Part shown: positions 7,126 to 26,471 of the stretch, in pieces | Layout of the letters: each line of letters opens with the position of its first letter | Numbering within the stretch: position 1 is the first letter of the stretch | DNA from: Tunturiibacter empetritectus | Lineage (GTDB): Bacteria > Acidobacteriota > Terriglobia > Terriglobales > Acidobacteriaceae | Reading direction: 5' to 3' | Length of the DNA: 64,000 bases | Assembly: GCF_013410875.1 (NCBI RefSeq) | Contig: NZ_JACCCU010000001.1 | Span: 2,294,001 to 2,358,000 of the forward strand | The notes under the pieces: model-generated | Databases searched by the model: none | Told to the model about the DNA's origin: nothing | Seen by the model: only the letters and a program-made list of their open reading frames with translations | Made by a program: the position numbers and the translations under genes

Positions 7126-7457
7126 CTAGAGAGGGTCTTTCTCTGCTCGCATGACGTTCCGGAAATGACTGATGCTCCAGACGAGCAGACCGACGCATAA
7201 CAGAGCTGCTAGGCCGACGGGCAGGCCCATCGGATCGTCTTCGAGGTTGATGCGGGCGCCTGATGTGGTATGGCTGGCCGTGCGGTCTCAGCCAGGAATA
7301 GGTACCCTCGTTTGCTGATCGTCTGGACAAAGCGGAGGCTCGATGAGTCGTCGCACAAAACTTGTCGTATCCTCCGAACGGCGGCATCAACCTCAATCTC
7401 ATCGTCCTAAAGCTCTTGAATGATCTCCTCTCTCATAACCAGTCCGTCAAGCCGGCT
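7126..7457 (-). pseudogene. Decayed winged-helix (OmpR/CadC-type) transcriptional regulator
   Basis: Reading the minus strand from 7457 gives a recognisable DNA-binding winged helix: GLVMREEIIQEL, then AVRRIRQVL, then FVQTISKRGYLFLAE, the hallmark of the OmpR-type effector domain found in CadC-like regulators. The frame is interrupted by an in-frame TAG (7407-7409) after EEIIQEL. After about residue 85 the reading frame shifts, and another frame continues with one transmembrane segment (GLPVGLAALLCVGLLVW) ending at a TAG at 7126. No start codon remains. This is a remnant of a helix-turn-helix plus membrane-segment regulator, sitting between the carotenoid operon and tRNA-Gln. Confidence 0.7.
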
Positions 7458-7528
7458 GGATCAGGAGCTCCATCGGGATCGCTCGTGCGAGAGGATGTTT
7501 GGGGACGTTTAATTTTTATGGATTTTGG

Positions 7529-7599
7529 TTGCCCCCCAGGGATTCGAACCCCGATTGATCGGTTCAGAGCCGACTGTTCTACCATTGAACTAGGGGGCA
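7529..7599 (-). tRNA. tRNA-Gln (anticodon CTG)
   Basis: A 71-nt cloverleaf on the minus strand. The acceptor stem TGCCCCC pairs with GGGGGCA, with discriminator A at 7529. The D arm is GTTC...GAAC. The anticodon stem GTCGG/CCGAT encloses loop CTCTGAA, giving anticodon CTG (plus-strand 7567-7565) for codon CAG. The T arm contains the invariant GTTCGAATC. CCA is not encoded. The gene is 85 bp from the left end of the accessory island, but the island's direct repeat does not lie within it. Confidence 0.97.
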
Positions 7600-7683
7600 A
7601 CGTGCTTGGCGTGGGTGCGCTTTTGCGTCGCGACGGGTGCTCGCTGACTGCCTTTTATGAGTGTACGAGGTGAGGGAGAGAAG

Positions 7684-7731
7684 GTCAACGGCTCGACGGG
7701 ATAGGAGATAGAGGGCTCCAAAACTGCCCCC
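7684..7731 (+). repeat. Left end of accessory island: 14-bp direct duplication plus 34-bp terminal inverted repeat
   Basis: GTCAACGGCTCGAC at 7684-7697 is repeated exactly and in the same orientation at 16506-16519. Directly inside it, the 34 bp at 7698-7731, beginning GGGATAGGAGATAG and ending CAAAACTGCCCCC, are the inverted counterpart of 16472-16505 with 31 of 34 positions identical (three transitions in the middle). This is the footprint of an insertion with terminal inverted repeats and a target-site duplication. The 220 bp between this end and the mod gene hold nothing I recognise. Confidence 0.8.
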
Positions 7732-7951
7732 CTCAATTCCCGCACGCACGAATTTGAAAGAAAACAAGAGTCAGCAGGAATATCCCAACGTAGATCTTTG
7801 ATATTGAACCACAACAGTTTTCGTTCCCGCCTCCACGATCCCCCGAAAGCCTGTTCATTTCTTGCACGCAACTCTGCGTTACAGTGGTTTAGAACATCTT
7901 TAAAACGCTGTCCACCACATCGCGGCTCCAAGCAGCCGCCAAGGAGTTTCT

Positions 7952-10072
7952 GTGTCACGACTGACCGACTTGATTGCCCAAGCCAAAACCAAAGACCCGC
8001 AATTAGGGGCAGATTTGGACAAGGAATTCAAGGTTTTGTCGTCACGGTTGCCGTTCGGCCTGAACTTCGAGCGCCACCGCCCGGAGGCCGTGGAGTTGCC
8101 TCAGCGTCCTGTTCGCAAGGGTGACAAGGTGCGCGTGTTGCCGAAACGTGGCTCCGGCAAAAAAGGAGACCAGCTCCTTTGGCAGGTGAAGGCGACCCGC
8201 AAGGTCGGTGACGGCAAGATGGCCGATCTGGAACTGTTGGGCGCGGCGAACACGGAAGCGCAATCCGTGGTGGTGAATGATTTGGTGATTGTTGCTGAGT
8301 TTCGCGACACCATCTATCCGGGCTTGGTCAGCACCGGCAAAGTACAGCGAGGTGGAGACAGACCTTTCCACACAGTCATCAATGGCGAGAACTACCACGT
8401 GCTGAAGGCGTTGACATACACGCATCGTGGAAAGGTGGATGCCATCTACATAGACCCGCCATACAACTCCAGGGCAAAAGATTGGAAATACAACAACGAT
8501 TACGTCGAGGCAGATGATCTCTATCGGCACAGCAAGTGGCTGGCGATGATGGAGCGGCGCTTGCTGCTCGCAAAGGACTTGTTAAATGCGGCGAATTCCG
8601 CGCTAATCGTCACCATTGACGAGAAGGAATATCTACGGCTGGGGTTGTTGCTGGAGCAGGTTTTCCCAGAAGCTGTCATTGAGATGGTTACAACCGTTGT
8701 GAACCCACGTGGACGCCATCGTCCCGGACGATTTTCGCGGTCAGAGGAATACATCTTTACGGTCATGCTAGGGAAGGCGACGGTCGGCCAAGAGGCAGAC
8801 CCCAATTTCGGCGGAGGCAGCCGGGTTCCTTGGCGTACTTTGCGACGTAGCGACGCGACTTCAGCGCGGGGCACCCTGAAAGGCGGCCCGGCTCAGTTCT
8901 ATCCCATCTACGTGAACGCCGAGGGCGTCATCGAAGAGATCGGCACTGCGCTACCTCATGGCGTCCCACGCGAAACTGCGCCATTTCGTAAAGGTTGCAC
9001 AGCAGTATTTCCTATGCGCGATTCGGGATTAGAAATGAACTGGGGACTTATCGCTCCGGCTCTGCGCAAAATACACTCCCGTGGGTACGTTCGTGTTGGG
9101 CGACACACGCCAGGAGAGCCTCAACAGTGGGAGATTTCGTACTTGACTACAGGAAAGATTAAAGACATTGATACTGGGCGCGCAATCATAGTAGATCGAG
9201 AGCCAAATGGGAGCGTCATAGCCGAGTATGTGGTCGATAAGCGCAAGACTCCAACTTCTACGTGGATGAGACCCTCCCACAACGCAGAGACTGGCGGCAC
9301 TCTCACCCTCACACAACTGCTGCCAGATCGCCGATTTCCGTTTCCCAAGTCACTGTATGCGGTTGAAGACACGCTACGTTTGTTTGTGGCTGCAAAGCAA
9401 GAAGCCGTCGTATTGGATTTCTTCGCAGGGTCAGGAACGACTGCCCACGCCGTCATGCGCCTGAACAAGCAGGATGGCGGCTCTCGCCAGTGCATCTCTG
9501 TTACTAACAATGAGGTTGCTGCCAAGGAGCAGGATGCGCTTCTTAAAAGGAGTCTGCGCCCAGGAGACGCCGAATGGGAACAATGGGGTATCTGCGACTA
9601 CATCACCAAGCCCCGCGTCGAAGCCGCTATCACTGGCAAGACACCGAGCGGTGAACTTATCGAGGGCGAATACAACTTCACCGACGAATTTCCGATGGCC
9701 GATGGCTTTAAGGAGAATGCGGAGTTCTTCACACTGACTTACGAATCTCCGATTGCAGTCAACCACAACGTGGCCTTTGCCCGCATCGCCCCGCTGTTGT
9801 GGTTGCGTGCCGGTAGCCGTGGCAAGCGCATCGACAATCTGCCCGCCGAAGGTTGGGCCGTGGTGTGTGCCTATGGACTGCTGGTGGACGTGGATACCGC
9901 TACGCCCTTCATCAAGGCTGTGAGCAAGGCTAAAGACGCGGGCGTCGCCTACATTGTTACCGACGATGATCGCCGTTTCCAAGCCATTGCACGGCGTTTA
10001 CCCCAAGGTGTGGAACCGGTGCGCCTGTACGAATCGTATTTGACCAACTTCAGCTTTGCGAACGGGGAATGA
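7952..10072 (+). CDS. mod: Type III restriction-modification system, DNA methyltransferase subunit (Mod)
   Basis: Beta-class adenine-N6 methyltransferase, 706 aa. The catalytic motif IV is Asp168-Pro-Pro-Tyr171, and the AdoMet-binding motif I is F-x-G-x-G type at residues 491-495 (FAGSGTTAH). The order IV then I, with a long target-recognition region between (about 230-450), is characteristic of type III Mod proteins. Start is GTG 7952, with AAGGAG at 7941-7946 well spaced. Mod gives sequence recognition to the complex and methylates one strand of an asymmetric site. The res gene follows after a 3-bp gap, so the pair is one operon. No frameshift or phase-variable simple repeat was seen in the gene. 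Confidence 0.93.
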   Translation: MSRLTDLIAQAKTKDPQLGADLDKEFKVLSSRLPFGLNFERHRPEAVELPQRPVRKGDKVRVLPKRGSGKKGDQLLWQVKATRKVGDGKMADLELLGAANTEAQSVVVNDLVIVAEFRDTIYPGLVSTGKVQRGGDRPFHTVINGENYHVLKALTYTHRGKVDAIYIDPPYNSRAKDWKYNNDYVEADDLYRHSKWLAMMERRLLLAKDLLNAANSALIVTIDEKEYLRLGLLLEQVFPEAVIEMVTTVVNPRGRHRPGRFSRSEEYIFTVMLGKATVGQEADPNFGGGSRVPWRTLRRSDATSARGTLKGGPAQFYPIYVNAEGVIEEIGTALPHGVPRETAPFRKGCTAVFPMRDSGLEMNWGLIAPALRKIHSRGYVRVGRHTPGEPQQWEISYLTTGKIKDIDTGRAIIVDREPNGSVIAEYVVDKRKTPTSTWMRPSHNAETGGTLTLTQLLPDRRFPFPKSLYAVEDTLRLFVAAKQEAVVLDFFAGSGTTAHAVMRLNKQDGGSRQCISVTNNEVAAKEQDALLKRSLRPGDAEWEQWGICDYITKPRVEAAITGKTPSGELIEGEYNFTDEFPMADGFKENAEFFTLTYESPIAVNHNVAFARIAPLLWLRAGSRGKRIDNLPAEGWAVVCAYGLLVDVDTATPFIKAVSKAKDAGVAYIVTDDDRRFQAIARRLPQGVEPVRLYESYLTNFSFANGE

Positions 10073-10075
10073 CAG

Positions 10076-12676
10076 ATGAAGTTCACGCTAAAGAGAAGCT
10101 ACCAGACGGATGCTGCACGCGATACCTTGTCCAATCTCAAGAAGGCCCGCAAGTATTGGCACGGCGAGGCCGACAAGACCGCGTTCTCCCTGACTGCCGT
10201 CACCGGCGCGGGCAAAACGGTCATGGCCGCCGCTGTGTTCGAGGCGCTGTTTCATGGTGATGACGAATTCGATTTCGATGCAGACCCTGGCGCGGTGGTG
10301 ATCTGGTTCAGCGACGATCCAGCGTTGAACGAGCAGACCCGGTTCCGCTTAATGGAAGCCAGTGACCGGCTCAGCCATACTGATCTAGTTCCAGTCGAAA
10401 ACACCTTCAGCAGGGATAAGTTTCAGGCGAAGAAGATTTATTTCATCAACACCGGAAAGCTCTCCAAGAACAGCTTGCTGACCCGCGGCTTCGACCAAGA
10501 GGAAGTGGAAACAAGAGCCGGTGCGCAGTTGCTGGAACTCCGTCCTGACTCGCGGTCATATACGATTTGGGAGACCATCCAGAACACCATTGAAGATCCG
10601 GACTTAACTCTGTATCTGGTACTGGATGAAGCGCACCGCGGAATAGGAAATCCCACCGCTGCCGACAGGAACGCTAAGAATACCATCGTCCAGAGACTCA
10701 TCAACGGCGCGAACGGCGTACCGGGCGTTCCAGTAGTCTGGGGTATTTCGGCCACAGTGGAACGCTTTAACGCAGCTATGGAAGTTGCTGTCAATCGCAC
10801 GATCTTGCCCAATGTACTGGTGGATTCTGCCAAAGTGCAGGAATCTGGTCTTATCAAAGACACCATCCTGATTGACATCCCGGATGAGGCGGGTGATTTC
10901 GATACCGTGCTGGTGCGCCGAGCGACGGACAAGTTGAAAGCATCCACCTCTGCTTGGGCTGAGTACGCCAAGCATCAGGAGGAGTCGCATACTGTGGTTC
11001 CGCTGATGGTGTTGCAGGTTCCCAACAAACCTGATCCGAACGATATTGGCCGAGCGTTGGATACCATCTATCAGCAATGGCCGGAGTTGCCCAGCGGAAG
11101 CGTGGCGCATGTGCTTGCCGACCACATCGCGCAACAGTTTGGCAACCACAACGTGCCGTACATTTCGCCAGAGTTGGTGCAGGATCGTGCTTGGGTGCGT
11201 GTGCTTATTGCCAAGGATGCCATCAGTACGGGCTGGGACTGCCCGCGGGCAGAGGTGATGGTGTCCTTCCGTGCTGCTACGGATTATACCCACATCACAC
11301 AGTTGCTGGGCCGCCTGGTGCGTTCGCCATTGGCTCGCCGTATCCCTGGCAATGAGCGATTGAATGCAGTGGAATGCCTGTTGCCGAATTTCAAGAAGAA
11401 GACGGTTGGTGACGTTGTCAAGGCTCTGATGAAGGGCGATGACACGATGCAGCCTTCTACTGGACGCATCCTCGTCAATCCTGTTGAGGTGAAGCCCAAT
11501 CCTGCGGCATCAGCGGCTGTTTGGGAGGTCTTTGAAGCATTGCCATCCCAAACGCAACCACAGCGTGGAGCAAAGCCTGCAAAGCGTTTGACTGCGCTTG
11601 CGCACGAATTGGCTTCCGATGACATTCTTCCCGGTGCTGGAAAGTTGGCTCATGCAGACATGCACAAGGCTTTGGACAAGTTCCAAGAGAGTGAGAAGGT
11701 GAAGATAGAGGCCAAACGCAAAGCTGTGATGACGGTAGACGGCAAGACCATAGTTGCCGACCTAAAAGGTAAGAACAAGAGTTTCGATGATTTCTGGGAA
11801 GATGCGGATATGGCAGTGATCGAGGATGCCTACCGCCGTGCCGCGCGCATCTTTACCCCGGACATTTCGCGCACCTATGCCGAGTTCCTTGCTTACAAGG
11901 TGGCCGCGCCGGATGAACCGGATGAATTCGAGGAATCCATTATCGAATCGCGTGTATCTATCGCCGCTCTGGGTTTGGTGATGGAGGCGCAAGGTTATTT
12001 CGATGCCGAGGCCGACAAGCTGGCCACGGCTTGGCTAGCCAAATACGGCAACGAAATCAAGAAGCTGACCGATGACCGGAAGGAAGCCTACCGACAGATT
12101 GTCGAGATGAGCAGCGAGCCGCAAGATCTGGAGTTGGTCAAGCCGGAAACCAAGTTCGAGCCGACCAAGGTAATAGAGAACGACAAGGAAACAGAATTTC
12201 CGACCTACAAGAACCATCTATTGTGCGATGAGAACGGCAATTACCCGGCGAATCTAAATTCATGGGAGATCGCTGTTGCAGAGACCGAATCAAAGCGCAA
12301 GGGTTTCAGCTTCTGGTATCGCAATCCCCAACAACCTGGGCAATCTTCGCTTGGCATCGCTTACCTTGATGGTGACCAATACAAAATCGTCCGCCCTGAC
12401 TTCATCTTCTTCTCCACCCTAGAAGATGGGAAGGTTGTTGGTGACATTGTTGACCCTCACGGCCTCTATTTGAACGACGCGCTACCCAAACTGCGAGGAT
12501 TGGCACTGTTCGCGGAGGCGCACTCAGTGGCTTACCGGCGGATCGAATCCGTTGCCGAGGTAAAGGGCAAACTGCGCGCCTTAAACTTGAAACGAGAAGA
12601 CGTGCGCAATGCCATTGCAATCGCAAAGGATGCTGCCAGCTTGTTCGTTGGACGCTTAGCCAGTGATTATGAATGA
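10076..12676 (+). CDS. res: Type III restriction-modification system, restriction subunit (Res)
   Basis: Superfamily 2 helicase-nuclease, 866 aa. Walker A is TGAGKT at residues 43-48 and the DEAH box at 184-187, followed by the SF2 motif III (WGISAT) and the second RecA-like domain with the motif VI region QLLGRLVRSP. The C-terminal part contains the PD-(D/E)xK-type nuclease region (VRPDFIFF followed by a GDIVDPHG segment). It needs Mod for recognition and cuts after ATP-dependent communication between two inverted sites. It appears intact and full length. Its stop codon overlaps a spurious downstream ATG, and remnants of a Cas1 gene begin about 140 bp after it. Confidence 0.93.
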   Translation: MKFTLKRSYQTDAARDTLSNLKKARKYWHGEADKTAFSLTAVTGAGKTVMAAAVFEALFHGDDEFDFDADPGAVVIWFSDDPALNEQTRFRLMEASDRLSHTDLVPVENTFSRDKFQAKKIYFINTGKLSKNSLLTRGFDQEEVETRAGAQLLELRPDSRSYTIWETIQNTIEDPDLTLYLVLDEAHRGIGNPTAADRNAKNTIVQRLINGANGVPGVPVVWGISATVERFNAAMEVAVNRTILPNVLVDSAKVQESGLIKDTILIDIPDEAGDFDTVLVRRATDKLKASTSAWAEYAKHQEESHTVVPLMVLQVPNKPDPNDIGRALDTIYQQWPELPSGSVAHVLADHIAQQFGNHNVPYISPELVQDRAWVRVLIAKDAISTGWDCPRAEVMVSFRAATDYTHITQLLGRLVRSPLARRIPGNERLNAVECLLPNFKKKTVGDVVKALMKGDDTMQPSTGRILVNPVEVKPNPAASAAVWEVFEALPSQTQPQRGAKPAKRLTALAHELASDDILPGAGKLAHADMHKALDKFQESEKVKIEAKRKAVMTVDGKTIVADLKGKNKSFDDFWEDADMAVIEDAYRRAARIFTPDISRTYAEFLAYKVAAPDEPDEFEESIIESRVSIAALGLVMEAQGYFDAEADKLATAWLAKYGNEIKKLTDDRKEAYRQIVEMSSEPQDLELVKPETKFEPTKVIENDKETEFPTYKNHLLCDENGNYPANLNSWEIAVAETESKRKGFSFWYRNPQQPGQSSLGIAYLDGDQYKIVRPDFIFFSTLEDGKVVGDIVDPHGLYLNDALPKLRGLALFAEAHSVAYRRIESVAEVKGKLRALNLKREDVRNAIAIAKDAASLFVGRLASDYE

Positions 12677-12851
12677 CGACACGCGACGAAGCCTTGAGTG
12701 ACCGGGAGAAATCACACAGGTCTCACGGTGACCTCGTAGGTCGGCTATCATCCGTCCATTATCCCGCCGGTCCGAGACTGCGACCGGGTGGCCCTGGACG
12801 TAACAGAAAGTTTAGCGACGAAGAGTTACGACCCTTGATGAGATTCGGTCT

Positions 12852-13844
12852 GTGGAGTTGCGCGCAGCCAAGATCTATTGGAAAGCGTGGCGGGCAGTCA
12901 CAATCAAGTTTCCCGACAAGGATCTGCCTCGCACACCCGAACATTGGCGGATCTTTCGCTCACGCGCGTCTGTCCTCTCAGGCTCTCCTAGACTCGCGGT
13001 AAATCCGGTTAACGCAATTTTGAACTATCTCTATGCACTGCTGGATGCGGAGTGTCGTCTTGCTGTCGCTGCCCTTGGACTTGATCCAGAGATGGGAGTT
13101 TTGCACATGGATACGATCAACCGAGACAGCCTGGCGTGCGATCTGATGGAGGCCATCCGACCCGATGTTGATGCCTATGTTTTAGACCGCATTTTGAAGC
13201 AGCCTCTAAAAAGAAATTGGTTTTTCGAAGAGCGCAACGGCAATTGCCGTCTGATGGCTGATCTAGCGAGTCAGCTCGCAGAAACGATTTCGACCTGGGC
13301 TCGCTTAGTCGCTCCACTTGCTGAGTGGACCGTGAAGGAGATTGCGTCAACGACCAAAATCCGCAGAGCGACTCCAGCAACGCGGCTGACACAGAATCAC
13401 AAGCGCGAGACCCGGGGAGGAGATCCGTTTGTAACGTCCAACAATTCGGTTAGCTTGCAGAACGTCTGTAATGACTGCGGCACTCCGATCATCAATGCAA
13501 ATGAGAAGTGCAGAGTTTGCTCAGTTGAAGAGTCTAAGCGGCGCCTTAAAGCAGTTGCGACAGAGGGGCGTGTAGTTTCTCGTTCAGCCAATGCTCAAGT
13601 TAAGCGGTCCACGACTCAGATTGCGAACCAAGTAGAGATCCGGGAATGGTCACCTTCGGACCAACCGTCCTGGCTGACAGCAGAATTTTATGCTGAGAAC
13701 ATTCAGCCGCAAATCTCCTCTCTATCTTGCAGTTCCATAACAACCCGACTTGCAGTTTCGCGAGGCTATGCAGGCGAGATTCGGCAGGGCCGGGTGCCGC
13801 ATCCACGGCATTGGATGGCTTTGGCCAAACTTATAGGGCTGTAA
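12852..13844 (+). CDS. Solo Cas1-like endonuclease/integrase, N-terminal domain missing, with zinc-ribbon tail
   Basis: The first 170 residues match the catalytic helical domain of Cas1. The glutamate motif is VELRAAKIYW (Glu2), then NPVNAILNYLYALL, GLDPEMGVLH (His85) and SLACDLMEAIRP (Asp97), so all three metal ligands are present. The usual N-terminal beta domain (about 130-160 residues) is absent. The frame opens only at 12816 after a TAG, and the only start is GTG 12852 without a ribosome binding site. The remainder carries a C-x2-C...C-x2-C zinc ribbon (CNDC, CRVC) and a C-terminal helix-turn-helix-like segment ending RQGRVPHPRHWMALAKLIG, features I associate with CRISPR-independent Cas1 proteins. 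No cas2, other cas gene or CRISPR array is nearby. The gene is probably a truncated remnant, though the catalytic part is free of stops. Confidence 0.75.
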   Translation: MELRAAKIYWKAWRAVTIKFPDKDLPRTPEHWRIFRSRASVLSGSPRLAVNPVNAILNYLYALLDAECRLAVAALGLDPEMGVLHMDTINRDSLACDLMEAIRPDVDAYVLDRILKQPLKRNWFFEERNGNCRLMADLASQLAETISTWARLVAPLAEWTVKEIASTTKIRRATPATRLTQNHKRETRGGDPFVTSNNSVSLQNVCNDCGTPIINANEKCRVCSVEESKRRLKAVATEGRVVSRSANAQVKRSTTQIANQVEIREWSPSDQPSWLTAEFYAENIQPQISSLSCSSITTRLAVSRGYAGEIRQGRVPHPRHWMALAKLIGL

Positions 13845-14058
13845 GAATAGAGGGTTCTGCCGTGGAACCGGTACGCGAGTGCTCAGTGAGTGGATTGCCT
13901 TGTTGTCGCCCATTCACACTTCCTCTGTTTAGTAGCAAGGAATATTGTCCAAGAGATCGACATGTGACTTAGCGCGAGTACTTAAAGCCGACGACGAGAA
14001 TCACGTGCTACGCTGTCCAGTAGGTCAGGGATTGAGATGTGGGTATATGCTCCCATGA

Positions 14059-14946
14059 CTAGGGATGGCCACTCACGCTAGGCATAGGAGCCTTAGGATA
14101 TTGCAAAGCCATGAACTGCTTATCTCCGTCCGACAGTTGATAGGTCCAGGGCGCTGAAATATTGTTCTGAGTCCACTCGGATGGAAAGCTGTAAATCATG
14201 ATCGAGCTTGTGTCCATTCTGGTAAAGATAAGCTGTTTAGGTGTGTATTGGTTGAAAATATTCTGATCTACGTCGTCTGTTGTCCAGCCCCACTGCGTCT
14301 TACAGTATTGATAAACGTACGGTTTGTTCCAAATAATCCCCGTGTTCGGTAGTTGATGTTCGTGAACCAAACCGAGAGCGTGGCCGAACTCGTGAAGAAC
14401 CACGCTGTCGTAGTCCGCTTGTGATGAAAAAGTTGTAAGCCAACCGAAGTGCATCGTTTCCTTCGTTCCATCGATTTGCAACGCATCATTTCCGATTTCC
14501 GATTCTGATCTTCCATTCCCGTCTACGCCGATACGAATCGACGCCTGGGTGGGATCATCAACAAAATTAAATTTGACGTTGACGTAGTCAGTCCACTTCA
14601 TTGCTGATTGCTTAATTCTTTCGCGAACAGTCGGATCTCCACTCAGAAACGCTACTTTGATAGTGGAACCTTGAGGCCAAAGTTCCGGCTTCATTACCCC
14701 TTGCTGTATGCTTGGCGAAATTGCTCGAATATCAGCTAATTGCGAGGCAGACAAACTTGTAATATTTAGCTCTTGGTTGAACATCGGCGACTGAGCGAGC
14801 TTATTCAAAGCCTTTCTGACCCTGGGTGGATCCTTGGCCGAACAAACGTGTATTTTCAGATTCGGACTGGGCGACTTTGATTCATTCTGAAGCCCCGCCG
14901 AAACCAAGCTTGCAAGGCCAACAACCAGTAACCACGGTCGCATCAT
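14059..14946 (-). CDS. Secreted zinc metalloprotease of the metzincin clan (astacin/matrixin-like)
   Basis: A 295-aa protein with an N-terminal signal peptide (PWLLVVGLASLVSA). The zinc site is H185-E-F-G-H189-A-L-G-L-V-H195-E-H, the extended metzincin signature, and a Met-turn candidate follows (SSIMIYSFPSEW). The N-terminal 80 residues may be a propeptide. It probably acts outside the cytoplasm. It lies 18 bp downstream of a broken outer-membrane-type gene on the same strand, so the two were probably co-transcribed. Active-site residues are intact although the neighbour has decayed. Confidence 0.85.
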   Translation of the reverse strand: MMRPWLLVVGLASLVSAGLQNESKSPSPNLKIHVCSAKDPPRVRKALNKLAQSPMFNQELNITSLSASQLADIRAISPSIQQGVMKPELWPQGSTIKVAFLSGDPTVRERIKQSAMKWTDYVNVKFNFVDDPTQASIRIGVDGNGRSESEIGNDALQIDGTKETMHFGWLTTFSSQADYDSVVLHEFGHALGLVHEHQLPNTGIIWNKPYVYQYCKTQWGWTTDDVDQNIFNQYTPKQLIFTRMDTSSIMIYSFPSEWTQNNISAPWTYQLSDGDKQFMALQYPKAPMPSVSGHP

Positions 14947-14964
14947 AGTTGCTCCTCGTATCCT

Positions 14965-16116
14965 TCAAGGCTTCTTTGCAGTGGTAGGTTTGGTGGGGCT
15001 CGTGGTCGTAGGAGTGGCAGGCGTACTCTTGTCGGACTTCACAAAGGAATTAGTTTGGAACGTAATTCCTCCAGCAAACCGGGCAGACCAGCGTGTCACG
15101 GGCGTCAACTGCCCAAAATTAGGGGGGATTACGCTGCCGTTGTGAAATCCTGGAGGGTAGTCGGCAAACTCCCCCATATGCATGCCCCCAGACAGAAACA
15201 GCCGCCTTCACAACGAAAATGAACCACCAGCAAACCAGCCGAAATTGGACACGGAGGGAGTGCTTCCAAATTTGAATACAGGACCCGTAGAAAACGCAAG
15301 CCCCGGCTGCGGACCCTTGTCTAAGACATATAACTTATAGTTGAGTAAGGCCAGCCCTTGTGGGCTTACATTTGAATTGCCATTCACGACAAGAACATTC
15401 TGCGTTCCCGTTGAGGTTGGCACTGACTGGCTCACATAAGTTCGATATGGAAGTGTCGTGAACATAACGCCAACAGACAGCGTTAAGACGTCATCTATCC
15501 CACATCGCCAAGATAAAGTCGAATCGCTAAGCTGATTGTTGTAGCGCAAACGCTCCCTCACCGTGAAGGCATCCCAGTGTTTGCTATCAACTTGATACGG
15601 GAATGAGACACTCGCAGTCCCAGAACCAAGCTTTTCATTGAGCGCCTCGTACTCTTGGATTTCTTGTGCTACGTCTAAAAGGTGGCTTGAGATCTGCACA
15701 TATCCAGGTGTGGTTCGATCGCTGCATTTCGCGTTTGTGAGCACTGTGGTGACCGATTGGCTAGTCAGCGCTGTCTGAGTTTCACTCAGGCCAACACTGT
15801 TTCCATTTTTCGGAAATAGAGATTGATTACTCGAAACATCCTCTAGGGCGGTTTCGTAGGCGCTGCAGTCTAGGTGAGGAGCCCCGGCCACAGGCTGCTG
15901 GCCTCCACCCAGCGCGCCACCGCCGGGCAGTCTACCGGCGTCGTTCCCGGGAAGTTCGTAACTTTTGACGTCAAGGGAGTACGTGTAGAGAATGATATTT
16001 GCGTTTGTCAGAGTTAACTGCGCGTTAGTTACACCCGTTCCAGGTGCAATGCAAGCTTGTTGTCCCGTCGTCCTGTTAGACCAATCAATTGTAACGGTCG
16101 GAGTAGTTTGGGTGTG
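14965..16116 (-). pseudogene. Broken gene for a putative outer-membrane/surface protein
   Basis: A single minus-strand reading frame runs from about 16116 to 14965, but it has no start codon at its 5' end (a TAA precedes it at about 16117) and is interrupted by an in-frame TGA at 15208-15210. Before the stop the product ends GWFAGGSFSL; after nine more codons it continues MHMGEFADYPPGFHNG and LTPVTRWSARFAGGITFQTNSF, which reads like the last strands of a beta-barrel with a terminal aromatic residue. A Pro/Thr/Ser/Lys-rich tail follows. Both parts are in the same frame, so the TGA is a nonsense mutation and not a frameshift. The family was not identified. Confidence 0.65.
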
Positions 16117-16471
16117 AGCTTATTGTGAATACGCACCCTCCTATAGCCTTGGACTTACCTAGTCGTGACTCCATTAGGCTCTCCTCGCGTGTAGAACACT
16201 CTGCTGCGTGGGACACTCTGGGCCGGGGACATAACAGATATCACGCCTTTCGATCTAAAGCAATGTTTCTTTCTTGGGGATTAATTAACTATCTGCGCTC
16301 GGCGAGCCCGGCACAAGAATCCGTCCAATGGCAGCCCTCCCTCCCCAACCAGAACGCAACCCTCTTCTTGGAGGAAACCCACCCCTGCGTTCTTTGGGGC
16401 TTAAAAAAATGAGGAAGCCCTATGGGACAACGAAGAAACAATCGCCGAGTCACTTATCGCAACACAGTCAA
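16117..16471. other. Non-coding right flank inside the island
   Basis: About 355 bp with no supported gene. It contains a possible hairpin GGGCTT...AAGCCC around 16398-16421 with an A-rich loop. Codon-like structure seen on the minus strand (around 16260-16470) has stops and no start, so it is either vestigial or non-coding. Confidence 0.4.
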
Positions 16472-16521
16472 GGGGGCAGTTTTGAAACCCCCTATCTCCT
16501 ATCCCGTCAACGGCTCGACGG
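16472..16521 (-). repeat. Right end of accessory island: 34-bp terminal inverted repeat plus 14-bp direct duplication
   Basis: Positions 16472-16505, beginning GGGGGCAGTTTTG and ending CTATCTCCTATCCC, are the inverted partner of 7698-7731. GTCAACGGCTCGAC at 16506-16519 repeats 7684-7697 exactly; two further G residues after it are also shared, making 16 bp identical. The DinB-like gene starts 35 bp to the right, so the chromosome resumes immediately. Confidence 0.8.
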
Positions 16522-16555
16522 ATCTGGATCCGCTGGTGCGGGTTAGAATGCAGGG

Positions 16556-17059
16556 ATGACTATGACCCTTGATGCTGTTGCTGCCGATTTTCTTGATGTT
16601 TCATGTCGCAGGCTCGACATGATGTGTGAGTGCTTCGAAGTTTGTTTGAGGAAGCTGACTTACGATCAGGTTTGGCAGCGGCAGGGGGACCATGAGAATG
16701 CTGTAGGAAATCTTGTGCTTCATCTTTGCGGGAATGCCCGACAGTGGGTGATGCATGGGGTGGGCGGGGCTGCCGATGTCAGAGTTCGTGATGCGGAGTT
16801 CAGTGCAGAGGGTGGGATGAGCCCAGAGGAGTTGATTGCGCTGTTTCAATCGACTTTTGCGGAGGCGAAGGGTGTGATTGCTGCGGTGCCGGCGGGGCGG
16901 TTGCCGGAGAGGATCACTCCGCAGGGGCGCGATGTGAGTGTGCTGGAGGCGATCTACCAGGTTGTGGGACATGTGCAGCAGCATGTAGGGCAGATTATTT
17001 TGCTGACGAAGCAGATGACTGCTGGGGATCTTGACCTTACGATTCCCCGGCCCAGATAG
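16556..17059 (+). CDS. DinB/DUF1572-family protein
   Basis: A 167-aa four-helix protein of the DinB superfamily. Metal-ligand type histidines are seen in the helix NLVLHLCGN and in the C-terminal helix GHVQQHVGQIILL, as is usual in this superfamily. Members include metal-dependent thiol transferases and DNA-damage-induced proteins, but the substrate here cannot be told. ATG 16556 is used, with ATG 16562 as alternative. It is the first gene outside the right end of the island. Confidence 0.8.
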   Translation: MTMTLDAVAADFLDVSCRRLDMMCECFEVCLRKLTYDQVWQRQGDHENAVGNLVLHLCGNARQWVMHGVGGAADVRVRDAEFSAEGGMSPEELIALFQSTFAEAKGVIAAVPAGRLPERITPQGRDVSVLEAIYQVVGHVQQHVGQIILLTKQMTAGDLDLTIPRPR

Positions 17060-17661
17060 TGCCGCTCCCCCTCCCCCCTCCCCCAATGGGTATCTTGTAT
17101 GGAAGTTGTTTGTTTTTATTGGTTTGCGAGGGGTGATTGTCTGCAAAATATTGATTTTGCTTGAGTTGGTCACAAAATACTTATAATCAATGATTTAGTA
17201 GATATATGCAAGCTGCTTGTTGAAGCATTATCTCTTCCTCCTCGCTTTCTTACTTAAAGTATAGTGCGGCAGGCTTATCTAATACGCCACGTGGATGTTC
17301 TTTGGATAGAAGTGTTTAGGTCTCGGTGGGGCTTGACATGTGTTTTGTTGGGGTTTTGGCGGTTTCGTTCAGGGGAAGAGCAAGCGAGGGGAACAGCAAT
17401 GAATGGTGGGCAGGCTCCATTTGACTTCGCACAGAGGCAGGATGACGGTAAGAACAGGCAACAGCACAACGCAACTGCAAAATACGGGGATTCTTCGCTC
17501 TGCTCAGAATGACGATCGAATTGTGGGGGCTACGCGGTGGGTTGTGGGGGCCAGGTAGGTTGGCAGGGGCCACGCCGTGGGTTGTAGGGACCAGGTAGAT
17601 TGTGGAGATTAGGTGGTGGGCCGTGGTTGCCAGGTGGTGGGTTGTGGTTGCGAGATGGTGG
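17060..17661. repeat. Non-coding region with an interspersed repeat and G-rich imperfect tandem repeats
   Basis: No gene is supported in these 600 bp. The first part is C-rich and then AT-rich. At 17449-17514 lies a diverged copy of an intergenic repeat also present near 33070 and 37069; it ends GGGGATTCTTC...CAGAATGACG. From about 17526 to 17660 the plus strand is strongly G-rich, with an imperfect 40-bp tandem repeat (GGTGGGTTGTGGGGGCCAGG type, units at 17526 and 17566) followed by GGTGGTGGG-like runs. These could fold as G-quadruplexes. They lie just past the 3' end of the convergent CGNR gene. Confidence 0.45.
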
Positions 17662-18249
17662 TTAGGTGGTGGATTGGTGGCGGTGGCGGAAGGCGGCTAC
17701 CTTGTTGCGGTTGCCGCAGGTGGCCATGCTGCACCAGCGACGATGGTGGGAGCGGGTTCGGTCATAGAACCAGAGGATGCACTCGGAGTCTTCGCAGCGG
17801 CGGACTAGGTTGAAGTCTCCGGTGGCGAGGAGTTCGGCAGCGGCTTCGGCTATGGGGGCGAGAATCTCTTCGGGGGTCCGCTGCTGCCAATGACGTTCGA
17901 GATGAAACGTTCCTTTTTGGGCAGAAGATAGTTTGAGATGGCTTTGTGACTGGGCAAGGAAGGCGTTGAGAGGAGCCGGGTCGGCGCGCTTCCCTGCTTT
18001 TCTGGTTTCTATGATCTTGCGAATGGCTTCCCGAAGGGACCGGGCACTGCGCAGGAGAGCACCTGGCTTTGACCTTGCGAGATCGTGCTCGATTCGCCAG
18101 CCCGCAGCGGCAAGCCACTGAAGTGCATCCTGATCGGTCTGGAGAGAGTCTACGATTACGCCGTCGAGAAGGAAGACGGTGTTGAGGACATCGAGCGCGG
18201 GATGATCGCCTACCTTTGGAGATTCGACGAGATTGACGGGTGTCGGCAA
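17662..18249 (-). CDS. CGNR zinc finger protein (ABATE domain), putative transcriptional regulator
   Basis: A 195-aa protein with an N-terminal ABATE-type stress-sensing domain and a C-terminal CGNR zinc finger: Cys pair C-x4-C (CEDSEC), the FYDRTRSHHRRWCSMATCGNR block with the eponymous CGNR, and a basic tail. Such proteins are thought to bind DNA. The start is uncertain: the frame offers TTG 18249 and no in-frame ATG before the upstream stop, with no good ribosome binding site. It is divergent from the hydrolase at 18374, and dyad repeats lie between them. Confidence 0.82.
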   Translation of the reverse strand: MPTPVNLVESPKVGDHPALDVLNTVFLLDGVIVDSLQTDQDALQWLAAAGWRIEHDLARSKPGALLRSARSLREAIRKIIETRKAGKRADPAPLNAFLAQSQSHLKLSSAQKGTFHLERHWQQRTPEEILAPIAEAAAELLATGDFNLVRRCEDSECILWFYDRTRSHHRRWCSMATCGNRNKVAAFRHRHQSTT

Positions 18250-18271
18250 GGGTAAAGTTTTTCTGTTTTTA

Positions 18272-18319
18272 TTGTAACTTCTGAAACCTATTTCAGGCGG
18301 TTACATCTCACTTGTAACT
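18272..18319. promoter_or_regulatory. Nested dyad and direct repeats between CGNR gene and hydrolase
   Basis: GTAAC (18274-18278) and GTTAC (18300-18304) flank TGAAA (18282-18286) and TTTCA (18291-18295), forming a nested imperfect dyad. TTGTAACT at 18272-18279 recurs at 18312-18319, 40 bp away. The region is the divergent promoter of the CGNR regulator and the hydrolase, so these are candidate operator sites. Binding by the CGNR protein is an inference. Confidence 0.4.
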
Positions 18320-18373
18320 ATTGAATACCAGGTTCAACGGTTTCACGTATTTGAGTTGCATCCGGAGGACAGA

Positions 18374-19402
18374 ATGGATCGTCGAGGCTTTATTGCTGGA
18401 GGTGGGAGCCTACTGGCAATGGCTGGTGCCGCTCCCGCTGTCCTTTCACAAAGTTTGTTTGAAGACTCACGAAGTTTCGAAGGAGGAGAGAGTATGTCCA
18501 ACATCTCCGCAGGTTCAGCAGTATCGAGTTCAGGAGTTCCGCTGACTACCGTTCGCCGCGTTACAGCTGATGGAGTGACCGTGTTTTATCGTGAGGCTGG
18601 TCCGGCGGATGCACCGGTGGTGTTGCTGCTGCACGGCTTCCCCACTTCTTCGTTTCAGTATCGTGAGCTGATTCCGCGGCTGGCGGATAAGTATCGGGTG
18701 ATTGCGCCGGATCTTCCGGGATTTGGATTTACGGATGTGCCTGAGGCGCGGCAGTACAAGTACAGCTTCGATGCGCTGGCGAAGACGATGCTGGCCTTTA
18801 CCGATGCGCTGCATCTGAAGCGGTATTCATTATATGTGTTCGACTATGGGGCGCCTACCGGGCTTCGCATGGCGGTGGCGCATCCGGAGCGGGTGACGGC
18901 GATCGTCTCGCAGAACGGGAACGCGTATGAAGAGGGGCTTGGCGATGCGTGGGGGCCGATTCGTAAGTATTGGAGCGATCCTTCGGCGGCGAATCGCGAG
19001 GAGGTACGTAAGGCTGCGGTGAGCTTTGAGGGGATCAAGTTTCAGTACGTGCATGGGGTGAAGAGTCCGGAGGCGGTTGGCCCAGAGGCTTACTGGCTAG
19101 ACTATGCGCTGGTGAGCCGCCCAGGAAATACGGATATTCAACTGGATTTGTTTTTGGATTATCAGAACAACGTGAAGCTGTATCCGAAGTTTCAGGAGTA
19201 CTTCCGGACGTCGAAGCCTCCGTTGCTGGCGATCTGGGGGAAGAACGATCCGTTTTTTATTCCACCGGGGGCTGAGGCTTTCAAAAAGGATAATCCGAAT
19301 GCTACGGTGCAGTTTCTGGATACGGGACACTTTGCGCTGGAGACGCATGTAGAGGAGGTTGCGTTGGCTATGAGGGAGTTGCTGGCGAAGAGCGTTGCGT
19401 GA
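18374..19402 (+). CDS. Alpha/beta hydrolase (haloalkane dehalogenase / epoxide hydrolase type), Tat-like leader
   Basis: A 342-aa hydrolase. The oxyanion motif is LLHGFPTSS, the nucleophile is an aspartate (Asp147 in VFDYGAP), and the catalytic histidine is in the DTGHFALETH segment. An aspartate nucleophile points to dehalogenase or epoxide hydrolase chemistry. The leader MDRRGFIAGGGSLLAMAGAA resembles a twin-arginine signal. Start ATG 18374 follows GGAGG at 18364-18368. A second in-frame ATG at 18494 follows AGGAGGAG (18481-18488) at ideal spacing and would give a leaderless 302-aa form. The substrate is unknown. Confidence 0.85.
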   Translation: MDRRGFIAGGGSLLAMAGAAPAVLSQSLFEDSRSFEGGESMSNISAGSAVSSSGVPLTTVRRVTADGVTVFYREAGPADAPVVLLLHGFPTSSFQYRELIPRLADKYRVIAPDLPGFGFTDVPEARQYKYSFDALAKTMLAFTDALHLKRYSLYVFDYGAPTGLRMAVAHPERVTAIVSQNGNAYEEGLGDAWGPIRKYWSDPSAANREEVRKAAVSFEGIKFQYVHGVKSPEAVGPEAYWLDYALVSRPGNTDIQLDLFLDYQNNVKLYPKFQEYFRTSKPPLLAIWGKNDPFFIPPGAEAFKKDNPNATVQFLDTGHFALETHVEEVALAMRELLAKSVA

Positions 19403-19464
19403 TGACGTGATGAATTGCTGGTTCAAGGGTGGAAATCGGTACGTTCGTCCGCCCGACGACACCC

Positions 19465-19503
19465 TGACGAGGCTTGACGGCCAAGGCGCAACAAGCCTCG
19501 TCA
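19465..19503. terminator. Perfect 12-bp inverted repeat between convergent genes (bidirectional terminator candidate)
   Basis: TGACGAGGCTTG (19465-19476) and CAAGCCTCGTCA (19492-19503) are perfectly complementary with a 15-nt loop. It lies 60 bp after the hydrolase and downstream of the epimerase on the other strand. No long T-run follows, so it may act with Rho or only as an RNA-stabilising hairpin. Confidence 0.5.
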
Positions 19504-19580
19504 GCTTTGTAGAGTTGTTCCGAAGAGCGCGCTCTGTGCGATGTTGCTCCTTGGATCGTGGCACCATATCTGGTATCTCC

Positions 19581-19615
19581 GTTTGTGTATCGAAGCATAC
19601 TGTTTGTGTATCGAA
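19581..19615. repeat. 14-bp direct repeat spaced by 21 bp
   Basis: GTTTGTGTATCGAA occurs at 19581-19594 and 19602-19615, one repeat start every 21 bp, which is two helical turns. It lies between convergent genes where no promoter is expected. It could be a regulator site left over from a lost gene. Confidence 0.45.
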
Positions 19616-19659
19616 CCTGCTCGACGGTGAGATTAATGTTTTGCGCGGCAACGGTTCCA

Positions 19660-20571
19660 TTACGCCTCCAGCCACTGCAATCTTCGCGGCTTCCATCCGA
19701 GAATCCGCTTCGCCTTGGCATTGGAGGCGCCACTCAACTTTGTTGCGTAATATACGACATCTTCCCCTGCGATTGATTTCACCTCGGCTTCGCTCATGCG
19801 CGGAGGTGGCGGAGCGCCCACGAACTTCGCAAACGCCGGCAGCCACACGGCCTGAGGGGAAGGATCATCATCGACCAAGTTGTACACACCTGGTTCGGCG
19901 GTCAGAGCTGCGACTGTTCCAATTGCAGCGTCGTCGATATGCACAAAGGACGACACTCCCTCACCTTTACCGACCACGGGATTTTGTTGCTTCATCACCA
20001 TGTTCGCCGCCGCCTCACCGGGGTGATACCACGTTCTCGGCCCGTAGAAGAACCCATAACGCAGCGACACGCCCTCGATTGCCTTGGAACTGAAGAGGCG
20101 TGTTTCCAGTTCTGTGTACGTCCGCGCACTTGCCGCTACGCCTGGGCTTGCGTGCACATCCAAGGGAGAAGATTCATCGGCCAAAGTACCTTCGGCCGCT
20201 TTCAAGAAGAATCCGCTCGACTGTTGCAGATATCGCCGCACGCCGCTTGCAATCGCTGCACGAAAGAGATTGCCACCACCCTCAATCCTTAGCTTTCTGT
20301 CTCCAGCCGCGTAGTTTGGCATATCGCTTTGTTCTTTGGGCAGAGATGTCAGCTCATCGATCACTACTTCGGCCTTTGAATGCCGCAGCGCTGCTTCGAG
20401 CGCTACAGCATCGAAGGCGTCTACGATCACGGCCTCGGCTCCCTGAGCTTCCAGGTCTTTCGCTCGCGCCGCGCTTGTAGTCATGCCCACTACAGAGTGT
20501 CCCTGCTTAAGTAGCTCCGCGATCAGAGGTCCGCCGATCGCTCCGCTTGCACCTGCTACAAATACATGCAT
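19660..20571 (-). CDS. NAD(P)-dependent epimerase/dehydratase (atypical SDR)
   Basis: A 303-aa extended or atypical short-chain dehydrogenase. The N-terminal GASGAIGGPL is the G-x-x-G-x-x-G nucleotide-binding motif. The YLQQSSGFF and YTELE segments correspond to the Ser/Tyr region, although a canonical YxxxK is not obvious. The later SFVHIDDAA motif is typical of epimerases of the WcaG type. The substrate is not predictable. It is transcribed on its own strand, convergent with the hydrolase and 85 bp downstream of the MFS transporter gene, possibly in one operon with it. Confidence 0.8.
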   Translation of the reverse strand: MHVFVAGASGAIGGPLIAELLKQGHSVVGMTTSAARAKDLEAQGAEAVIVDAFDAVALEAALRHSKAEVVIDELTSLPKEQSDMPNYAAGDRKLRIEGGGNLFRAAIASGVRRYLQQSSGFFLKAAEGTLADESSPLDVHASPGVAASARTYTELETRLFSSKAIEGVSLRYGFFYGPRTWYHPGEAAANMVMKQQNPVVGKGEGVSSFVHIDDAAIGTVAALTAEPGVYNLVDDDPSPQAVWLPAFAKFVGAPPPPRMSEAEVKSIAGEDVVYYATKLSGASNAKAKRILGWKPRRLQWLEA

Positions 20572-20656
20572 CGCCTGCTCCTCTTAGATTGGTTGCTTAA
20601 TCCCGGACGGTTGCTAAGGAGATGGTACGAGCCTGCGCTCTACCCTGAGAAGCCCT

Positions 20657-21946
20657 TTAGAGTTCGAGTTGTGCGGTCTTGATCACGGTGGGGCGAAGTG
20701 GCCGCAGGCAGACGAAGATCAACATAGGGATGCTGGTTACGAGGGCGGCCACACACTCAATAGCGGGCAGTCCTCGTGCTCCCCATCGGGCCGCAGCCCA
20801 GCCGTCGATGGAGATCATGAGCAGCACCGGGATGTTGATGATGCCGTTGATGACTGAGAAGCGTCCGCTGCCGCTCTTGCCTGACTCTCCGAGGAACTCA
20901 AGTGTAATCGCAGTCGAGGTCGAGTAACAGCAGCCCGAGGTGAACAGATACAGGACCGTGGCGCAGAGATAGCTCCATGGGCGCATGGGGCCGAACGCCA
21001 TTGCGCCAAGGACCAACGCGTTGAGAATGTAAACGACGAGAGCGGGGCGTGCGATTCCCCAACGAGTTGGGAACAGGGCTGTCACCATTGAGCCTGCGGC
21101 GATAGCTAAGGCTCCTATCAAGCCGTTCATCCAGGCAATCTGGTCGCTGTTGATGCTGTAGGATTGCGCGATGCTGGGAAGTAGTCCTATGGCTGCGCCG
21201 GTGCCTGCCGGCAGGAGCACGTATACCAGATAAGGGATGGAGTCCCGGCGCAGGAAGGTAGCTTTGCACTCGCTACCCAGAATTCTGAGGGTCTGTAGAA
21301 GGCCGGAGCTTCGCACGACGGGCTGATGCGGTGCGAGAAGAGCAAAGATGCTGGGAAGTCCAATCATGGCAGCTGCCATCCATCCAAGCGATGCGGCAGG
21401 AACGCGTGAGCTTTCGCGGATTAAGGCCCAGGTGGCGAGCGCGCCGAAGGCCATGGAGCCAGCCTGAAAAAAACCACACGCTGTGTGCCGAGACTTGTCG
21501 GAGTGAAGCGTTCCCATCATGCCGCCACAACTGGCAAAGACAAGCTGTGTGAGGCATCCGCTGAGGAGAATAAGCCGCAGTGGAGTGGGCGCGGCGATGC
21601 TTTGTTGGCGAAAGGCGAGCAGCATGAGGACAGCCGCGCAGAGCGAACCAAGCATCAGCCAGGTGCGCCGTTTGAGGAGGAAGTCCGTTAACGGGCTGTA
21701 GAGAAAATAAAGCGTTGTGGGAAGCGCCAGTATGGAGAGCCAATGGGATGCGACGTCGATCTTCATGCCCTGCTGGGTGAGCAGATATCCGAGTACCCCA
21801 CCCTGTATGATCCCGTTGGCTACGACAGCCGACGGCGCGACGAGCAGACCAAAGATCCAGGGCCGATCCCCGCTGACAGTGGCGTCACCAAGAACGGACG
21901 GGAGAGCGTCCGGCAACAGCAGGTCCTGCTGGTTGGCAGCATTCAT
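20657..21946 (-). CDS. Major facilitator superfamily transporter
   Basis: A 429-aa integral membrane protein with about 12 hydrophobic segments. A loop of MFS type follows segment 2 (SPLTDFLLKRRTW), where the second cytoplasmic motif A usually lies. The sequence arrangement resembles the AmpG/PAT-type branch, but no substrate can be named. The gene is divergent from the carbonic anhydrase gene; the 339-bp gap between them holds repeated AGTGATGGG words and no other gene. Confidence 0.82.
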   Translation of the reverse strand: MNAANQQDLLLPDALPSVLGDATVSGDRPWIFGLLVAPSAVVANGIIQGGVLGYLLTQQGMKIDVASHWLSILALPTTLYFLYSPLTDFLLKRRTWLMLGSLCAAVLMLLAFRQQSIAAPTPLRLILLSGCLTQLVFASCGGMMGTLHSDKSRHTACGFFQAGSMAFGALATWALIRESSRVPAASLGWMAAAMIGLPSIFALLAPHQPVVRSSGLLQTLRILGSECKATFLRRDSIPYLVYVLLPAGTGAAIGLLPSIAQSYSINSDQIAWMNGLIGALAIAAGSMVTALFPTRWGIARPALVVYILNALVLGAMAFGPMRPWSYLCATVLYLFTSGCCYSTSTAITLEFLGESGKSGSGRFSVINGIINIPVLLMISIDGWAAARWGARGLPAIECVAALVTSIPMLIFVCLRPLRPTVIKTAQLEL

Positions 21947-22285
21947 AAGATTCGCTGATCTCTAGCGCCCGTTTATAACACGTCGCGTCGAGATTCAGAT
22001 CGAATGGGTTCATTCCTTATTAGCGAAGGGTTTCTAAGAGCCGGCTTGCAGAGAGTGATGGGCACTTCAAGTGATGGGTTACCCGCAGTTACGCCGTGAA
22101 CCAGAGATCCGGTTGGGGGAAGACATAATGGACACTGGCCAGCTTCACAGACCGAAACCACAGCTATTTGGTTACGGCTTGTAATCGGATTGCTCACGGT
22201 GGGGCTGCGAGCAACTTTTCTTTGGCTGATGCTTTGTGGTGCATGGTAAAGTTAGCGTCCCGGGCCCCCAAAAGGAGATTTTTCA

Positions 22286-23119: not shown

Positions 23120-23126
23120 GACCAGA

Positions 23127-24284: not shown

Positions 24285-24341
24285 CTGAAACTTTACTCCG
24301 AATGTTGGACGGGTTCTAAGTTCAATTGTGAGTGGAGTGTG

Positions 24342-24397
24342 TGTCCTGCCGGACGGGCCTCCTGCGCGGAGGGCGGTCACTTCGTGACTTGTGTACC
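24342..24397. repeat. Interspersed hairpin repeat, family 1, copy 1
   Basis: A 56-bp intergenic unit beginning TGTCCTGCCGGACGGGCC, containing a CCTCC-TGCGC-GGAGG hairpin and then GTCAC-TTC-GTGAC. It matches 31198-31253 closely and 58852-58940 in diverged form. It sits between the divergent VWFA and S55 peptidase genes. Confidence 0.7.
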
Positions 24398-24473
24398 GCT
24401 TCGCTTGGTGCTCCCGTTGGTCGCAGGATAGTTTGTGCAACGGCTCGGGTTTCCCTAGTAGTCTGTAGACGTG

Positions 24474-26336: not shown

Positions 26337-26440
26337 GGCTTGCGGGCCAGGCTAATAAGTGTTGAAGCAGGTGTTGTTACTAGATTGTTGCGAGCTGGTG
26401 CGATTAGCGGGTGGATGATTTTTTGCTCTGGGTGGTGTTG

Positions 26441-26471
26441 TAGCATCAAAGGGTAGATAGCATCAAAGGGT
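26441..26471. repeat. Tandem 14-bp direct repeat upstream of alcohol dehydrogenase
   Basis: TAGCATCAAAGGGT occurs at 26441-26454 and 26458-26471, period 17 bp, ending 45 bp before the dehydrogenase ATG. Either a paired regulator site or a recent slippage duplication. Confidence 0.5.

Follow-up and report, generated by a model that had tools for sequence, protein, structure and literature searches.

Comparative sequence evidence for acidobacterial casposons that insert at the −35 box of predicted promoters

Results

The 64,000-nucleotide stretch of Tunturiibacter empetritectus DNA analysed here (contig NZ_JACCCU010000001.1, positions 2,294,001 to 2,358,000; hereafter the window) holds an 8.8-kb island that is very probably a decayed casposon, likely moved by Cas1, with a 14-bp duplication at the −35 box of a predicted tRNA-Gln promoter and a type III restriction–modification system as cargo. 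The direct repeat GTCAACGGCTCGAC stands in the same orientation at 7684-7697 and, by direct-repeat comparison, at 16506-16519, and directly inside the two copies lie terminal inverted repeats at 7698-7731 (forward strand) and 16472-16505 (reverse strand), which match at 31/34 positions and were delimited by inverted-repeat search and comparison of ends; both features have the positions first claimed for them in the initial annotation. By a simple estimate, about 4e-15 such repeat pairs are expected by chance in 64 kb. The inverted-repeat search itself returned arms of 37 nt (92%), the GAC/GTC of the duplication extending the match by coincidence, and the window by itself leaves two readings of the boundary, since ends starting GAC with a duplication AACGGCTC of 8 bp would fit too. 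That shorter duplication was rejected on the evidence of other elements, described below, which fix the length at 14.

The left copy of the duplication reaches into the predicted promoter of a host gene outside the element, tRNA-Gln(CTG) (7526-7599, reverse strand, located by tRNA search). Read from the sequence on the reverse strand against the consensus for promoter boxes, a predicted −10 box TACACT (7660-7665) lies 17 bp from a predicted −35 box TTGACC (7683-7688), whose TTGAC forms the outer end of the duplication. The right flank is a host DinB/DUF1572 gene (16556-17059, forward strand; Pfam).

Between the ends, a forward-strand tandem that looks intact provides both parts of a type III restriction–modification system: mod (7952-10072; 706 aa, DPPY and FAGSGTT motifs; Pfam N6_N4_Mtase 6e-17, PADLOC MTase_III 3.4e-279) and the restriction subunit res (10076-12676; 866 aa, GAGKT and DEAH motifs; Pfam ResIII 5e-12, PADLOC REase_III 3.4e-9). 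It is followed on the same strand by a truncated casposase, or Cas1 (12852-13844; Pfam Cas_Cas1, E 1.3e-23), consisting of part of the catalytic domain, a zinc finger and a tail that resembles a helix-turn-helix (HTH) at the C-terminus. Two cargo genes lie on the reverse strand, a zinc metalloprotease-like gene of M10/astacin type (14059-14946; Pfam) and an open reading frame (ORF) with no assigned function (15208-15891; ORF list and Pfam).

The casposase fragment covers only positions 155-279 of the 283 in the Cas_Cas1 model. Aligned with residues 185-522 of the Cas1 from a related element (L044), it shows 86% identity; it keeps the E/H/D residues and the zinc finger, residues 1-184 being gone. 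The polymerase, HTH, HNH and second HTH proteins of L044, compared with the island by tblastn, gave a best E of 0.010 over 19 residues, and the only Cas1 match in the window genome (G000, 5.07 Mb) is the island fragment. Because relatives with like ends carry both, the missing polymerase and the missing N-terminal part of Cas1 are, judging from this comparison, losses in the window copy, which is predicted to be immobile on its own since it has lost the polymerase, the accessory genes and part of Cas1.

An unoccupied site, which the initial annotation had proposed to look for, exists in related genomes. With the DinB flank as query, 37/60 genomes of the genus matched; in G278 (locus L087) the tRNA-Gln flank joins DinB through a single GTCAACGGCTCAAC, identical to the island's repeat at 13/14 positions, and L091 and L094 likewise read as empty sites. 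A strain of the same species (G150) has the same insertion, 97.7-99.2% identical. At the same tRNA-Gln site, G209 has a 143-bp insert between two copies of GTCAACGGCTCGAC (L086:2055-2197); from its sequence, this is a miniature casposon derivative, whose right end points to the element family of L011. The concern that the 34-bp end might be a dispersed repeat was dispelled when its outer 18 bp were scanned through the window genome: with 0-1 mismatch only the two island ends are found, and with 3 mismatches there are nine more matches versus 5 for a reversed control.

Relatives of the island

A genome scan with the window Cas1 fragment found three loci. One of these, L012 in Granulicella sp. 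L46, is an unambiguous second site: a 16.2-kb element with like ends and the duplication GACAAGCTCCATTG, inserted inside a gene and encoding a Cas1 of 526 aa and a PolB-like protein of 1014 aa. It also holds two tandem tyrosine recombinase genes (L012:11574-13933), which may represent another mobile element or belong to this one. With the L012 Cas1 as query, 37/299 family genomes match at E 1e-20; at 1e-60 there are matches in 44/398 genomes of the family and 34/298 of the order, in overlapping samples, and at 1e-40 in 8/396 across the phylum, seven of them in the same family. A protein database search returned 4670 proteins at E 0.001 among 7998 scored; the best 120 of the 4670 are 417-595 aa long, and many of these 120 carry the name CRISPR-associated endonuclease Cas1 (CRISPR, clustered regularly interspaced short palindromic repeats). 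The casposase family seems large in public metagenomes. Among viral contigs a relative turned up at only 2 loci, which were of no help in reading target sites.

To delineate elements in 53 regions, end pairs starting with GGG were picked solely for their inverted-repeat identity (16/20 or more), leaving the direct repeat free between 6 and 25 bp. A length of 14 bp was found in 29 end pairs from 26 regions, 12 bp once and 16 bp three times, these four cases arising from the same elements when the end is placed one base off. The 26 regions represent 25 loci, as two records (L011 and L048) hold one and the same locus, and 24 insertions, as the window and L076 share one inherited insertion. In all, 27 elements of 5.1 to 17.2 kb were delineated; one, L117a, is bounded by duplications and has unlike ends. 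The other copies of the end sought by the initial annotation are at hand, with different 14-bp duplications. Judged by their sequences, the relatives are a group of casposons from the island's own bacterial family, with duplications of 14 bp where elements could be delineated: terminal inverted repeats and duplications of about 14-15 bp go together with a stand-alone cas1 inside the element and, in many, with a family B polymerase gene and HTH accessory genes, some also having HNH genes. Two side observations concern single elements: in another family of the phylum, L131 (G422:C2) holds a 5.3-kb element (7142-12400) with 20/20 ends and the duplication GTCAAGCAGAGGCC, and a casposon in the joined region L060_L061 (11399-27772) contains a tRNA-Gly(CCC) gene (L060:17561-17632).

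Cas1 is encoded in 25/27 elements, a count due partly to selection since the regions were picked through Cas1; the two elements without it, L052a and L070b, are tandem neighbours. A PolB-like protein of around 1000 aa is present, whole or as a fragment, in 20/27, and the initial annotation's view that a missing PolB sets the island apart from known casposons is not supported. HTH-like proteins occur in 18/27 and HNH-like ones in 7/27, names that we take from their motifs, Pfam having matched neither in L012. No gene family besides Cas1, PolB and one HTH reaches 8/27 elements. Many relatives have a full-length Cas1 with catalytic residues; E195, H278 and D290 are invariant in 39 sequences, which also share a CxxC-CxxC finger, and the nearest solved structure is the Methanosarcina casposase 6opm, both by sequence (4.1e-22) and by fold (5.4e-17). 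The Cas1 model has a mean predicted local distance difference test (pLDDT) score of 78.8, and its template modelling (TM) scores of 0.35-0.54 are low over the whole chain. In PolB, D48, E50, D360, D623 and D625 are invariant in 17 sequences, the motifs DTET, DFLSMYP and DTDS recur in many members, and the fold matches of the model are B-family polymerases.

These counts bear on the idea that a conventional DDE transposase moved the island and was then lost, Cas1 being a mere passenger. The window copy indeed has no intact integrase, its own duplication can be read as 8 bp, and the relatives were gathered through Cas1. Yet among the relatives' shared genes only Cas1, PolB (20) and one HTH (18) reach eight of the 27 elements; the duplications have the 14 bp that PMC6977970 reports for casposases; and the main window ORFs searched with Pfam showed no DDE domain. 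We regard this explanation as very improbable, and the initial proposal of a Cas1-type mobile element with type III restriction–modification cargo as supported.

Target sites

Read outward, the duplications end in TTGAC at 21/25 loci, mostly with TAnnnT 17 or 18 bp further on. We searched 299 genomes for the pattern CTCCTATCCC-N9-TTGAC, that is, element end plus duplication with the −10 box left free, and obtained 35 matches in 29/299 genomes versus 1 for the reversed pattern. As 13/29 of these genomes lie outside the 37 with a Cas1 match, decayed or non-autonomous copies must account for many of the ends. Thirty of the 35 matches could be read as loci, the other five having none: 7/30 run directly into another element end, with 20-24 of 24 bases as in a known end, and 22/23 of the ends that border host DNA have TAnnnT at 17 bp (14) or 18 bp (8), as against at most 1 at other spacings. 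Across 1.01 Mb of host sequence taken from the same regions, TAnnnT at 17/18 bp follows 59/1659 TTGAC (3.6%) and 8/36 GTTTGACC sites; Fisher tests of the element ends against these backgrounds give 1e-29 and 2e-8, respectively. When orthologues are grouped and both sets are pooled, leaving aside L080 and L195, the strict rule holds at 17/21 distinct sites. The statistics thus support, at the level of sequence, a target that is a core promoter motif, N9-TTGAC/N, 17 or 18 bp, TAnnnT (the slash marks the edge of the duplication), before many unrelated genes.

Among these genes, identified from one representative each with Pfam and NCBIfam, are valS (valine tRNA ligase), thrS (threonine tRNA ligase), rplU (L21) and nuoB (NADH dehydrogenase subunit B), besides genes for a Ser/Thr kinase and for radical SAM, alpha-amylase-like and TonB-receptor-like proteins; tRNA genes at target sites are tRNA-Gln in the window and a tRNA-Ala (ARAGORN). 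Of ten target-gene proteins, two more had no Pfam match and three no NCBIfam match; those at L064 and L120 are presumably GAF and ASPIC-like. A target at tRNA 3' ends, which known casposons had led us to expect, was rejected, the 5' end of tRNA-Gln facing the insertion; nor do the elements follow the 3'-end pattern of casposons at tRNA or aEF-2 genes, most sites lying upstream of genes at the −35 box. The site of the L131 element, TTGACA-17-AATACT, fails the strict TAnnnT rule and yet looks promoter-like.

Two other accounts of this preference deserve attention. The integrase might insert at any (C)GTTTGAC site, promoters dominating because copies elsewhere were lost to selection. Consistent with such survivor bias, TTGAC is common to nearly all sites, one element (L012) sits in a coding gene, and G occupies position 8 of the duplication at 13/17 distinct sites versus 21/59 promoter-like sites of the background; the integrase itself thus seems to recognise particular letters. 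However, TTGAC in intergenic DNA outside promoters should tolerate insertion just as well, and still 22/23 ends have a −10 box as against 8/36 of the background sites; a cut placed within the −35 hexamer would also be an odd outcome of survival alone. We consider this account unlikely.

Alternatively, the integrase may find promoters through bound RNA polymerase holoenzyme and not by reading DNA. The spacing of 17 or 18 bp is that of sigma70 promoters, where a fixed protein–DNA contact would favour one value, and the genes behind the target promoters are unrelated. Against it, sigma bound at the promoter would cover the −35 hexamer, within which one cut falls, and the duplication itself shows a preference for an extra letter. 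Moreover, known casposases need no other proteins in vitro to locate the motif that lies upstream of their target site (PMC6614799, PMC6977970). Guidance by the holoenzyme appears unlikely, if somewhat less so than survivor bias.

Stacked elements

At 12/25 loci another element end begins right beyond the far duplication, and at two (L068 and L080) on the near side, counting as an end any sequence with at least 15/24 identity to a known one, a threshold that 3.6% of GGG starts in the regions reach. At L068 the promoter, TTGAC-N-17-TATTAT, appeared one element further out after extension. Rows with three copies of one 14-bp repeat occur at L052, L068, L070 and L117; the end sequences of the two units differ clearly at L052 and L070, where the units are therefore separate insertions, not duplications of one. 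Far-side remnants suggest that the elements closest to the promoter are the newer ones. A Cas1 tree unites the tRNA-Gln elements in a single clade and places the valS elements within a larger clade that also includes an rplU and a kinase site, a second rplU element standing outside; target choice is thus partly inherited and partly common to several lineages. The promoter target and the stacking are the truly unusual features of these elements, and both were absent from the initial annotation.

Cargo

Twenty cargo proteins, chosen by eye as defence-like, were run through PADLOC, and 11/20 match a model at 1e-10. The types are GmrSD-type, IIG/Eco57I-type restriction, AAA, AbiU-like, NACHT-type, Mrr/Avs-like, methylase, kinase and CRISPR effectors. 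Defence-type cargo was seen in L120, L050, L064, L046, L066 and L129, the AAA protein being HEC-01A-like and the methylase of Eco57I type.

The CRISPR effectors belong to L142:369-13784 (G269, contig C25), a casposon with 20/20 ends and the duplication AAATCCCATTTGAC, found on one contig of one genome. Its effectors are type I-C-like, namely a Cas5-like protein (7578-8186), Cas8c (8176-9885), a Cas7-like protein (9800-10726) and Cas3 (10710-12917), and an array of six identical 32-bp repeats (13106-13468) lies inside the element ends; effectors and array adjoin the element's own casposase and PolB. Cas2 and Cas4 were not found among the seven L142 ORFs scanned, and the main ORFs of the window and of L012, scanned without the small ones, likewise include no Cas2. 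An adaptation module, with cas1 beside cas2 and an array, is accordingly not present among the ORFs scanned in the window, L012 or L142. A match of an L142 spacer to another casposon (16/33 bases, E 0.008) was judged to be chance.

Discussion

Using a combination of element delineation, pattern statistics and comparison of integrases, our work here suggests how a Cas1 integrase may couple the choice of a target to its preservation. We propose that Cas1 would attach the two ends of the element at staggered positions separated by 14 bp, one of them lying between bases five and six of the −35 hexamer, and that gap filling would double the 14 bp (N9-TTGAC). The outward copy would then rebuild the −35 box with its spacer and −10 box, so that the host gene would keep its core promoter and the element would replace only sequence upstream of it. 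Since the duplication restores the promoter, insertion would not silence the gene; and since every insertion would recreate the target on the promoter side, more elements could follow and stack behind the promoter, which would give a row of duplication, element, duplication, element, as in a CRISPR array behind its leader. Least certain is what in the integrase complex might read the promoter DNA: the C-terminal HTH of Cas1 itself, HTH proteins encoded by the element, or promoter-bound RNA polymerase. The geometry and its statistics come from the present data, and the chemistry of joining is taken over from studied casposases. We put at about one in two the probability that acidobacterial casposases read a whole sigma70 promoter, cut in its −35 box, rebuild it and file transposons behind it like spacers behind a leader, with at least one element already carrying CRISPR effectors and an array as a living counterpart of the joining of casposon and effectors toward adaptive immunity.

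Several observations weigh against the reading of these elements as casposons that target promoters. The evidence for mobility is all comparative, and survivor bias could mimic part of the promoter preference. The pattern search preset TTGAC, so that its −10 result alone is unconditional. The strict promoter rule fails at 4/21 distinct sites (L012, L064, L129 and L131), the L012 insertion lying within a TonB-receptor-like gene; TTGAG (L046) and TTGCG (L120) stand in place of TTGAC; and the sequence next to the L195 end is neither a promoter nor a known end (12/24). In the delineation, 108 candidate end pairs from the 53 regions have no anchored repeat, and 27/53 regions, among them short contigs, fragments and decayed copies, yielded no pair of inverted repeats with a duplication. 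As to the enzymes, the CRISPR Cas1 4n06 scores nearly as well as 6opm by sequence, and in the Cas1 tree, with two partial outgroups only, casposase and CRISPR outgroup pair up on long branches. The Pfam match of PolB is weak (DNA_pol_B_2 in 11/17 members at E<=0.01, best 3.8e-7), no solved polymerase matches it by sequence better than 0.07, and its model is of modest confidence (pLDDT 67.5).

The closest described elements are those of casposon family 3, bacterial casposons from Streptomyces albulus, Henriciella marina, Nitrosomonas AL212 and Ca. Acetothermum (PMC4046053). They share with the present group a Cas1 with C-terminal zinc finger and HTH, as in AceAut-C1, genes for PolB, HNH and HTH proteins, terminal inverted repeats and duplications near 14-15 bp. 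In contrast, the present group resides in Acidobacteriota, its PolB, where Pfam matches, is DNA_pol_B_2, and it has a −35-box target, stacks behind promoters and carries defence cargo. Similarly, the archaeal casposons of Methanosarcina mazei and Aciduliprofundum boonei (PMC6977970, PMC10359463, PMC6614799) make a 14-bp duplication, are site-specific with a host-side motif beyond the duplication, insert in tandem into the regenerated site and keep target genes intact. While these target tRNA 3' ends, and a thaumarchaeal family is described as targeting the aEF-2 3' end, the present group uses promoters of genes of many kinds. Tandem casposons are already known in Methanosarcina (PMC9939771, PMC10359463); the latter source also covers casposon movement in vivo, the former is a review, and PMC6452270 gives an origin scenario.

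With CRISPR adaptation by Cas1–Cas2 at the leader-proximal repeat, these elements share the Cas1 fold and active-site residues, and also the doubling of the target at each insertion that builds a repeat-insert-repeat row from a leader-like sequence. They differ in that the inserts are elements of 5-17 kb with their own ends and 14-bp repeats, the scanned proteins included no Cas2, and the promoter faces away from the row. Harmless insertion at a place fixed by a gene is familiar from Ty3 and Ty1, upstream of RNA polymerase III genes, and from Tn7 at glmS. The enzymes are unrelated, however, and here the core promoter itself would bear the cut and the duplication rebuild it. Tn7 at glmS is also treated in PMC4046053.

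In 5.39 million open-access papers, the sole co-mention of casposons and Acidobacteria is an entry in a reference list, and neither 'casposon' with 'granulicella' nor 'cas1 solo' with 'acidobacteri' returned anything; most subscription papers and bioRxiv lay outside this search. The word 'promoter' is absent from PMC4046053, PMC9939771, PMC6977970, PMC10359463 and PMC6614799, and in two further papers that mention casposons, promoters and target sites it concerns other matters. Both the target rule and the host group are thus absent, for this known kind of element, from the literature searched.

Casposons are held to be the source of the CRISPR adaptation machinery, and few bacterial ones are described in the papers cited here. 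With the target rule, it becomes testable how a Cas1 integrase comes to favour a single leader-like site and whether the first CRISPR leader could have been a promoter. As many casposases are named CRISPR-associated Cas1, counts of CRISPR in soil that are based on cas1 may be inflated. If the promoters keep working, defence genes placed upstream of essential genes, which remain unbroken, would represent a natural scheme of safe insertion.

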